Below are positions 25,301 through 31,300 of a stretch of DNA of 64,000 bases, piece by piece. The translations under genes were made by a program, and so were the position numbers. Position 1 is the first letter of the stretch. Each line of letters begins with the position of its first letter. Location of the stretch: the NCBI GenBank assembly GCA_903813345.2, contig CAIIXF020000006.1, forward strand, positions 25,923,936 to 25,987,935, read 5' to 3'. The notes beneath the pieces are model-generated. The model worked only from the letters and a program-made list of their open reading frames with translations, ran no database searches and was not told the DNA's origin. This DNA is from Owenia fusiformis. Lineage: Eukaryota > Annelida > Polychaeta > Sabellida > Oweniidae.

Positions 25301-28300
25301 AGTAATATGGCAATCAAACAGGCTATATTCATTTAACAATTACAATATATCTACTGACCGCAGAATGGAACAGTGCAGTATTCCCATCTTGTGTTTTTAT
25401 CCGTGGTGTAACACCAGGGTCCGGATGGTTCATTGTCGGGATTTCTACAATTCAAGGAATACAGTTTATATCGGTATATGTTGAAATATAAGGATGAGTT
25501 GCAAATTGTTAATGGATATTTAACACCTGCATATGCAAATGGTGAAATATATATTCCCAGAAAATTCAACAAGTTGCACTTATAACAAGGACTCACCTGC
25601 AGTAATTGAAAATCAAGGTGCACTTATAGCAAGGACTTACCTGAAGTAATTGGAAATCAAGGCGCACTTATAACAAGCACTCACCTGCAGTAATTGGAAA
25701 TCAAGGTGCACTTATAAAAAGGACTTACCTGCAGTAATTGGAAATCAAGGTGCACTTACAACAAGGACTTACCTGCAGTAATTGGAAATCAAGGCGCACT
25801 TATAACAAGGACTTACCTGCAGTAATTGGAAATCAAGGCGCACTTATAACAAGGACTTACCTGCAGTAATTGGAAATCAAGGTGCACTTATAACAAGGAC
25901 TCACCTGCAGTAATTGGAAATCAAGGTGCACTTACAACAAGGACTTACCTGCTGTAATTGGAAATCAAGGCACACTTAGAACAATAACTCACCTGCAGTA
26001 ATTGGAAATCAAGGTGCACTTGTATATAACAATGACTAACCTGTGGTAATTGGAAATCAAGGGGCACTTATAACAAGGACTCACCTGCAGTAATTCGAAA
26101 TCAAGGTGCACTTACAACAAGGACTTACCTGCAGTAATTGGAAATCAAGGTGCACTTATAACAAGGACTCACCTGCAGTAATTGGAAATCAAGGCGCACT
26201 TATAACAATGAGTCACCTGCAGTAATTGGAAATCAAGGTGCACTTACAACAAGAACTAACCTGCAGTAATTGGAAATCAAGGCACACTTATAGCAAGGAC
26301 TTACTTGCAGTAATTGGAAATCAAGGCACATTTATAACAAGGACTCACTTGCAGTAATTGGAAATCAAGGCACACTTATAACAAGGACTCACCTGCAGTA
26401 ATTGGAAATCAAGGCACACTTATAACAAGGACTCACCTGCAGTAATTGGAAATCAAGGCACACTTATAGCAAGGACTTACTTGCAGTAATTGGAAATCAA
26501 GGCACACTTATAACAAGGACTCACCTGCAGTAATTGGAATTCAAGGCACACTTATAGCAAGGACTTACTTGCAGTAATTGGAAATCAAGGCACACTTATA
26601 ACAAGGACTCACCTGCAGTAATTGGAAATCAAGGCACACTTATAGCAAGGACTTACTTGCAGTAATTGGAAATCAAGGCACACTTATAACAAGGACTCAC
26701 CTGCAGTAATTGGAATTCAAGGCACACTTATAGCAAGGACTTACTTGCAGTAATTGGAAATCAAGGCACATTTATAACAAGGACTCACTTGCAGTAATTG
26801 GAAATCAAGGCACACTTATAACAAGGACTCACCTGCAGTAATTGGAAATCAAGGCACACTTATAGCAAGGACTTACTTGCAGTAATTGGAAATCAAGGCA
26901 CACTTATAACAAGGACTCACCTGCAGTAATTGGAATTCAAGGCACACTTATAACAAGGACTCACCTGCAGTAATTGGAAATCAAGGCACACTTATAGCAA
27001 GGACCTACTTGTAGTAATTGGAAATCAAGACACACTTATAACAAGAACTTACCTGCAGTAATTGGAAATCAAAATGCACTTACAACAAGGACTCACCTGC
27101 AGTAATTGGAAATCAAGGTGCACTTACAACAAGGACTTACCTGCAGTAATTGGAAATCAAGGTGCACTTACAACAAGGACTTACCTGCAGTAATTGGAAT
27201 TCAAGGTGCACTTACAACAAGGACTTACCTGCAGTAATTGGAAATCAAGGTGCACTTATAACAAGGACTCACTTGCAGTAATTGGAAATCAAGGCACACT
27301 TATAACAAGGACTCACCTGCAGTAATTGGAAATCAAGGCACACTTATAGCAAGGACTTACTTGCAGTAATTGGAAATCAAGGCACACTTATAGCAAGGAC
27401 TTACTTGCAGTAATTGGAAATCAAGGCACATTTATAACAAGGACTCACTTGCAGTAATTGGAAATCAAGGCACACTTATAACAAGGACTCACCTGCAGTA
27501 ATTGGGAATCAAGGCACACTTATAGCAAGGACTTACTTGCAGTAATTGGAAACCAAGGCACACTTATAACAAGGACTCACCTGCAGTAATTGGAATTCAA
27601 GGCACACTTATAACAAGGACTCACCTGCAGTAATTGGAAATCAAGGCACACTTATAGCAAGGACTTACTTGCAGTAATTGGAAATCAAGACACACTTATA
27701 ACAAGGACTTACCTGCAGTAATTGGAAATCAAAATGCACTTACAACAAGGACTCACCTGCAGTATTGGAAATCAAGGTGCACTTACAACAAGGACTTACC
27801 TGCAGTAATTGGAAATCAAGGTGCACTTACAACAAGGACTTACCTGCAGTAATTGGAAATCAAGGTGCACTTACAACAAGGACTTACCTGCAGTAATTGG
27901 AAATCAAGGCACACTTATAACAAGGACTTACTTGCATTAATTGGAAATCAAGGCGCACTTATAACAAGGACTCCCCTGCAGTAATTGGAAATCAAGGCGC
28001 AGTTATAACAAGGACTTACCTGAAGTAATTGGAAATCAAGGCGCACTTATAACAAGGACTTACCTGCAGTAATTGGAAATCAAGGTGCACTTATAACAAG
28101 GACTCACCTGCAGTAATTGGAAATCAAGGTGCACTTACAACAAGGACTTACCTGCAGTAATTGGAAATCAAGGTGCACTTACAACAAGGACTTACCTGCA
28201 GTAATTGGAAATCAAGGTGCACTTATAACAAGGACTTACCTGAAGTAATTGGAAATCAAGGTGCACTTATAACAAGGACTTACCTGAAGTAATTGGAAAT

Positions 28301-31300
28301 CAAGGCGCACTTATAACAAGGACTTACCTGCAGTAATTGGAAATCAAGGTGCACTTGTATATAACAATGACTTACCTGAAGTAATTGGAAATCAAGGTGC
28401 ACTTATAACAAGGACTTACCTGCAGTAATTGGAAATCAAGGTGCACTTATAACAAGGACTTACCTGAAGTAATTGGAAATCAAGGCGCACTTATAACAAG
28501 GACTTACCTGCAGTAATTGGAAATCAAGGTGCACTTATAACAAGGACTCACCTGCAGTAATTGGAAATCAAGGTGCACTTATAACAAGGACTTACCTGCA
28601 GAAATTTGAAGCATCAGTGACGCTTCCATCAGGGAATTTATCCGGATCATTGTTATTGTGATTGTGGGGGAACTGGGAGTCCCAACGCTGACAATTGAGG
28701 CCTAAAATAAGAAATATAATATTATATCAATACAACCTAAATTGCAATTCACATATACGTGATAAGTTACTTTACATCAGGTAGTTATTTGAAATCTTTA
28801 TATGAAGCAATACATTTCTCTCAAAAATTAAGAATCAGATGATCTTTCTTGCTCAATATGGAAAGAGGAATATAGAGAGTTGGATAGAGTTTTTAGTAGT
28901 TTCTTTTTAGTATCCATTTATGCTGACAGTTTATGAGTATGACAACTTTCACAGTGACAGAAATTGTGTATATACATGTATGTATTAATACATAAACAGA
29001 TTTTAGACCTGTTGGTGTTAAACGCTCGCTATTTATTCAAGTTTTTGCAAATGTGATATTACATGTATTCCATAACTTGTTTGTAAATGTGATACTTACC
29101 ACTGCTGGTCTTTGAGAAGCTGCCCATGTATTCTTTGCCCATATGGGAATACTTGCACTCTTCCTGGGGCCCATACTTGGGGGTAGTGACCTGGGGAATG
29201 GTGGGGGTTGTTGAAGGTGGCGTTTCCGTTGTGGAGAATAATGCTGGAAAAACAGTGCCAATGTCAGCAAGAATTCCAGGATACAATAAAAAAAATAACA
29301 GTTCAAGATGACAACAAATCAAATATTAATGCTGATCAGTTATTTAACACAATTTTTTTTTTCAAAAGTATGTCTCAATTTTGAGTATGAGGCTGAAAGT
29401 TCATATCCCACAAGAAAATAAGACAAATTGGACCGAGCTGTAACATAGACAGAACTCTACATCTAAGACAAATATTTCAAAATTGATAATTAGTATTAGA
29501 CACTGAATTTAAACGATTCAAAGTTAATAAGTGTCGGAACATACAGCAGAATGGTATCATGCAGTAGTCCTTCTCCTTTGCTGGGTTCGTTGTATAACAC
29601 CAAGGACCAACTGGATCATTGTTTGGATTACGACAGTAGTTGGAAGCATCATCCATTGTACGATCAGGGAAGTAGGTAGGTATTCTGTATGGGTGGGAAT
29701 GAGGAGTCTGCTGATCCCATCTCTGGCACGTGAAGCCAAGTTGTGTTACTTGTTTGGTACCTTCATACTTGTTGCCAGTGTAATCCTGCTTACATGCTAC
29801 ATGAAACAAAGAAATAAGTCTAATGACCTACCTCATACACAGTAAAACCTCTATATAGTGAACACCTATGGAGGTACAAAAAGGTGTTCACTGTAGGTAA
29901 GTGTTCATTACAGGGAGGGGATTTTATACAGAACTCAGTGGAGTATGGGCTGAGAAGAGTTGTTCAGTTGACACAGGTGTTCGCTAGAGAGGGGGGATTT
30001 TATACAGAACTCAGTGGAGTATGGGCTGAGAAGAGTTGTTCACTAGACACAGGTGTTCGCTAGAGAGGGGGGATTTTATACAGAACTCAGTGGAGTATAT
30101 GCTGAGAAGAGTTGTTCACTAGACACAGGTGTTTGCTAGAGAGGGGGGATTTTATACAGAACTCAGTGGAGTATATGCTGAGAAGAGTTGTTCACTAGAC
30201 ACAGGTGTTTGCTAGAGAGGGGGGATTTTATACAGAACTCAGTGGAGTATATGCTGAGAAGAGTTGTTCACTAGACACAGGTGTTTGCTAGAGAGGGGGG
30301 ATTTTATACAGAACTCAGTGGAGTATATGCTGAGAAGAGTTGTTCACTAGACACAGGTGTTCGCTACAGAGGGGGGATTAATACAGAACTCAGTGGAGTA
30401 TGTGCTGAAAAGAGTTGTTCACTAGACACAGGTGTTCACTAGAGAGAGGGGATTAATACAGAACTCAGTGGAGTATATGCTGAGAAGAGTTGTTCACTAG
30501 ACACAGGTGTTCGCTAGAGAGGGGGGATTAATACAGAACTCAGTGGAGTATGTGCTGAAAAGAGTTGTTCACTAGACACAGGTGTTCACTAGAGAGGGGG
30601 GATTAATACAGAACTCAGTGGAGTATATGCTGAGAAGAGTTGTTCACTAGACACAGGTGTTCGCTAGAGAGAGGGGATTAATACAGAACTCAGTGGAGTA
30701 TATGCTGAGAAGAGTTGTTCACTAGACACAGGTGTTCACTAGAGAGAGGGGATTAATACAGAACTCAGTGGAGTATATGCTGAGAAGAGTTGTTCACTAG
30801 ACACAGGTGTTCGCTAGAGAGGGGGGATTTTATACAGAACTCAGTGGAGTATATGCTGAGAAGAGTTGTTCACTAGACACAGGTGTTTGCTAGAGAGGGG
30901 GGATTTTATACAGAACTCAGTGGAGTATATGCTGAGAAGAGTTGTTCACTAGACACAGGTGTTCGCTAGAGAGGGGGGATTTTATACAGAACTCAGTGGA
31001 GTATATGCTGAGAAGAGTTGTTCACTAGACACAGGTGTTTGCTAGAGAGGGGGGATTTTATACAGAACTCAGTGGAGTATATGCTGAGAAGAGTTGTTCA
31101 CTAGACACAGGTGTTTGCTAGAGAGAGGGGATATTATACAGGAGTCGATGTAAAATGTGTCTCGGAGAAGTGTTCACTAAACAACATGTTCACTAGAGAG
31201 AAGTGTTCACTAAGACAGGTTTTACAGTACTAAATCTTAGATGAATACAATATGGGCCAGCACTACATGTATGTGGTGAGGACATAAAAAGTGTCTAAAG

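Follow-up and report, generated by a model that had tools for sequence, protein, structure and literature searches.

The annelid Owenia fusiformis carries, within a stretch of 64,000 nucleotides analysed here at its full length (the window; assembly GCA_903813345.2, contig CAIIXF020000006.1, positions 25,923,936 to 25,987,935, GC content 34-39%), a gene with kringle exons that is read from the reverse strand. One intron of this gene is occupied over 3026 of its 3151 bp by a minisatellite whose unit is a copy of the boundary between the preceding exon and the intron itself. The exon that opens the array matches the kringle family weakly when taken alone (21.7 bits, against a Pfam cut-off of 34.3), and gives a clear Pfam kringle match once it is joined with its two neighbours (9.9e-26). 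The features of this locus, together with comparable arrays found at other exons of the genome, are collected in Table 1.

Table 1. Features of the kringle gene in the window, and donor arrays of the genome whose exon at the opening junction has Pfam or PDB homology.
Feature	Position or locus	Strand	Basis
69-unit boundary array (exon tail / GTRAGT / intron head, 44 bp)	25570..28595	-	TRF and wrap-around alignment
Kringle exon whose donor opens the array, end TTCAAATTTCTGCAG	28596..28701	-	Alignment and Pfam
Array-bearing intron, 3151 bp, acceptor TTGAATTGTAG	25445..28595	-	
Next kringle exon after the array intron	25359..25444	-	3' end read by eye
Paralogous exon, end GCTGCCAATTACTGCAG	35448..35553	-	
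Paralogous intron, about 427 bp, without array	35021..35447	-	
Further exon of the kringle gene, end TGTGACATCAATTATTGTG	60147..60232	-	5' end read by eye
Second, short boundary array in the same gene, period about 43	59952..60168	-	
Donor array at a kringle exon	window array		Pfam 9.9e-26 (joined exons)
Donor array at a NIF-type phosphatase exon	L014		Pfam 1.9e-6
Donor array at a BTB exon	L022		Pfam 1.2e-14
Donor array at a sulfatase exon	L029		Pfam 2.8e-13
Donor array at a PP2A-B56 exon	L030		Pfam 5.4e-10; PDB 2.1e-15 agrees
Donor array at a PF15874 exon	L026		8.1e-9
Donor array at an SMC4 exon	L020		PDB 3.8e-32; Pfam gave only weak, unrelated matches
Donor array at a C2 exon	L055		3.7e-8

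Tandem Repeats Finder (TRF) calls the repeat at 25576-28610, with a period of 44, 68.8 copies and 92% matches, and wrap-around alignment started from the exon donor resolves it into 69 units, a count that takes in the true donor of the kringle exon; 66 units measure 44 bp, two measure 48 bp and one measures 43 bp, with a final partial unit of 27 bp. The original prediction of about 69 tandem donors, in a 44-bp minisatellite lying within one intron at 25573-28595, is thus borne out, the aligned span starting at 25570. The alternation that it described between GTAAGT and GTGAGT is equally recovered: among the 69 units the donor words are CAG/GTAAGT (27), CAG/GTGAGT (22), CAA/GTAAGT (11), CAA/GTGAGT (4) and other words (5), so that GTRAGT is present in 64 donors, and the GT itself is intact in 68. 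A higher-order repeat of 15 units appeared plausible by eye and was set aside, since the values of the lag analysis rose only weakly at lag 15 (0.925). The figure of 69 comes from a single assembly, and an error in copy number superimposed on a genuine boundary duplication could in principle be involved; this is extremely improbable, in that the units differ from one another at several columns, in patterns, so that reads could be placed apart.

The composition of the unit is what relates the array to the exon that it follows. The array opens with the first intronic base, and the last 15 bp of the unit agree with the end of its own exon at 13 of 15 positions, as expected from the proposal that an exon-intron boundary has been amplified from the real donor onwards; alignment to the paralogous exon, which the original prediction had put forward as a check, gives 14/15. 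Among 751 other CAG sites on the same strand outside the array, the paralogous exon included, one reaches at least 13/15, consistent with the end of the paralogous exon being the sole site that equals the exon's own end in its resemblance to the unit. At the far side of the array, the final unit follows the repeat for approximately 27-29 bp beyond its donor before unique intron begins, which suggests that the founding unit combined some 15-17 bp from the exon with 27-29 bp from the intron. A 21-mer spanning the junction, searched with up to one mismatch in the searchable part of the 498-Mb genome, yielded 60 matches, all inside the window array, and the same 21-mer read backwards yielded none; an 88-nt query matched on contig C6 only. 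The unit was therefore not seen at unrelated loci away from kringle exons, the situation in which, according to the original prediction, the match to the exon would have to be regarded as coincidental.

A second and much shorter array of the same kind is present in the same gene, where a 19-bp exon tail is repeated four times exactly (60165, 60122, 60079 and 60005), followed by GTAAGT in two copies and by ACAAGT in the other two. Beyond the window, a genome-wide screen for three CAGGTRAGT words at a spacing of 16-46 bp returned 287 matches, as compared to 69 for the word read backwards. Among the matches listed (100 places each of 287, 158 and 129), at least 23 distinct donor arrays were recognized, including that of the window, and since each of the three match lists is partial this number is a lower bound; the sequences of the other 22 were retrieved as well. 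For eight of these 23, Pfam or the PDB contains homologues of the exon at the first junction (Table 1), and the agreement between unit and exon end can be very close, with 50/52 bp identical in L014 and 47/48 bp in L055. In the four loci examined for it (L014, L020, L029 and L030), the stretch beyond the array fits what we take to be the next residues of the protein, the motif at L029 being a loose one. At eight further arrays (L011, L013, L017, L021, L023, L024, L027 and L031) the exon is recognized only from an open frame with an acceptor-like site, none of these exons having a Pfam match and that of L031 also none in the PDB, and one array, L028, begins 68 bp past a methyltransferase exon. 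As read from the assembly, then, the unit is made of exon tail, donor and intron head, the array begins with the true donor, and other exons with homology display this arrangement too; boundary arrays recur over unrelated genes, and it is this recurrence that is new.

The extent to which exon ends attract such arrays is a separate issue. The genome contains 8875 copies of CAGGTRAGT and 6057 of the reversed word, indicating that up to approximately 32% of the former may be real donors. Anchoring at an exon amounts to 8/23 of the listed arrays (35%) by homology, which is no excess over that proportion, and to 16/23 by the looser open-frame test, which would be one, so that a hotspot is not shown; the idea of exon ends as a proven minisatellite hotspot was thus abandoned, only the loose anchored count suggesting an excess. 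The reversed word forms nine arrays in the whole genome, six of them on C1-C9, and none of the nine was seen to start at an exon donor when inspected by eye for open frames of at least 60 amino acids, with no homology search. One of these control arrays, L037 (approximately 1583-2311 on the motif strand), has 21-bp units, falls within a 243-codon open frame and has the appearance of a coding repeat. Such arrays do, therefore, arise without exons, as is also evident from the donor-word arrays with no exon at their start, which make up 6/23 of those listed (L012, L015, L016, L018, L019 and L025; L012, L015 and L019 have no Pfam match). These observations would suit an intronic minisatellite of the ordinary kind, with a unit that looks like a donor by accident; for the window array, such a coincidence is hardly credible, being contradicted by the exon-tail match in a unit that contains the exon's end and by an array that opens at the first intronic base.

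In lancelet genes, exon/intron boundaries that have been duplicated in tandem are described as “mirages” (PMC3087553, PMC3902484), and the available portions of these two reports place them in Adh3, troponin C (TnC), the globins BflGb6 and BflGb9, and PGBD5. The statement in the original prediction that no standard repeat class of this definition was known consequently has to be withdrawn. As described in the same portions, lancelet mirages occur at either side of introns and display length instability (PMC3087553, PMC3902484); their units measure 10-72 bp in Adh3, and splicing over them was reported to be undisturbed in reverse transcription PCR experiments (PMC3087553). Two of the properties by which a mirage is recognized, namely a repeat unit that spans an exon/intron boundary and an array that adjoins an authentic exon of a protein gene, are found in the window array. 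Its 44-bp unit falls within the range of Adh3, and the occurrence of arrays at either intron end is a further likeness. In contrast, as far as the available text of those reports goes, lancelet mirages contain small numbers of units (6 and 3 in BflGb6), whereas 69 are present in a single intron here, and in Owenia, apparently outside lancelets, that gene has a further array and others occur genome-wide. No paper pairing “Owenia” with “minisatellite” was found in the open-licence literature searched.

The reading that we consider probable (roughly 0.77) is that the window array is itself a mirage, generated by a tandem duplication across the 3' end of the exon and the 5' splice site, subsequently amplified, and removed together with the intron. 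A short segment spanning the exon end and the splice site would first have been duplicated in tandem, possibly seeded by a short sequence common to the exon and the intron head, and slippage or unequal exchange could then have expanded the array to 69 units. As the original donor remains on the exon, every added copy lands inside the intron; if splicing takes the first donor, as we infer, the array leaves with the intron, the protein is unchanged and the growth of the repeat is hidden from it, so that the array would be close to neutral. Some observations weigh against this reading. The unit tail and its own exon now differ at two of the last 15 bp, and the listed arrays without an exon at their start, mentioned above, do not conform to it. 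In addition, the sequence shared at the founding join, assessed in 13 arrays, was positive in eight, with 4 bp in L014; it was nil in one array, and four arrays, including the window's, gave a negative value. This measurement serves as a hint only, given that mismatches were tolerated, that array ends are degenerate and that it has no null.

The presence of AG/GT in each unit evokes the Rogers model, in which tandem duplications bearing AGGT create introns (PMC4974935, in the portion available). The window units carry AG/GT, and copies could thus supply both donor and acceptor signals; in this case, however, the intron itself is not new, since the paralogous intron lies at the same position without any array and the intron must be older than the repeat. 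Most units read GTRAGT...CAG, and the array could accordingly be pictured as a self-repairing splice buffer, in which a run retained through the choice of a wrong donor, beginning with GT and mostly ending in AG, would be removable in a second splicing step. Although fission-yeast introns spanning 24-bp tandem copies that bear AGGT are cited in the accessible part of the same review (PMC4974935), such a buffer is very unlikely here: 16 of the 66 full 44-bp units end in A rather than G, which breaks the AG, and what precedes the unit end is the exon tail, not a selected pyrimidine tract. A single unit of 44 nt would also be short for an animal intron. Recursive splice sites likewise have AG/GTRAGT back to back. 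The window array shares this arrangement, and its CAG/GTRAGT resembled a zero-length exon; recursive splicing was nonetheless rejected as the main explanation, because here the exon tail precedes the CAG and the sites are tandem copies, and it is retained among the rival readings.

The persistence of so many donors could alternatively point to a regulatory decoy, whereby the extra copies bind the U1 small nuclear ribonucleoprotein (U1 snRNP) and lead to the use of downstream donors, a stop codon and mRNA decay, or else shield a long intron from early polyadenylation. The retention of GTRAGT in most donors is in line with such a role, as is the finding that use of donors 2, 3 or 4, those that were translated, brings in a stop codon immediately behind the exon in each case. 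Divergence was compared between columns in ten long arrays, two of which (L012 and L015) are unanchored. In the window array it is lower in the donor columns than in the others (0.034 vs 0.057), and the means over the ten arrays are 0.042 and 0.054; yet donor columns are lower in six arrays and higher in four, so that neither upkeep nor removal of donors is shown. As donor columns are not generally better kept, and as comparable arrays exist in genes with no relation to this one, among them the SMC4 and PP2A-B56 genes, a decoy appears unlikely, and a repeat that would be near-neutral is favoured.

Arrays at the opposite end of introns exist as well. The acceptor word gave 98 matches vs 17 for its reverse, mostly from one dispersed satellite of approximately 31 bp that carries TTTTTTCAG in each unit (for example at C1:2468159, C3:20454156 and C8:17431794). 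Nine other acceptor-word arrays were fetched (L056-L064), of which five (L056, L057, L058, L059 and L062) seem, when read by eye, to be anchored where an exon begins; their units hold an acceptor-like site and what looks like the beginning of the following exon. For L056 and L057, the peptide encoded by this exon has no Pfam match. A bias of boundary arrays towards the donor side is thus unsupported.

Within the window, the region of approximately 20500-36100 contains kringle exons at 20597-25444 and at 29641-35553 in the same order and with similar ends, as if a kringle block had been duplicated, and in the exon pair at 28596 and 35448 an array follows one copy only. Other repeats include a 36-bp unit present 48 times at 42160-43888 (99% matches), open in several frames on both strands, and a 76-bp unit present 16 times at 29917-31141 (96% matches), located in another intron of the kringle gene, away from exon ends.

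A broader proposition is that exon/intron boundaries are a recurrent birthplace of minisatellites in this genome, where a GTRAGT donor that shares a word with the nearby exon starts the duplication, where arrays are tolerated because each unit comes near to a removable GT...AG intron, and where mirages represent a general class in distant animals as well as a lasting source of new splice sites; we regard it as doubtful in this full form. Mirages have so far been described gene by gene in lancelets, as judged from the available portions of the reports (PMC3087553, PMC3902484). An intron that contains 69 donors, together with seven further homology-backed cases in one genome that is apparently not a lancelet's, would turn them into a countable class. 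Boundary arrays could furthermore serve as natural test beds, both for the manner in which the spliceosome chooses the first among dozens of nearly equal donors and for the manner in which tandem duplication may feed new splice sites into genes.
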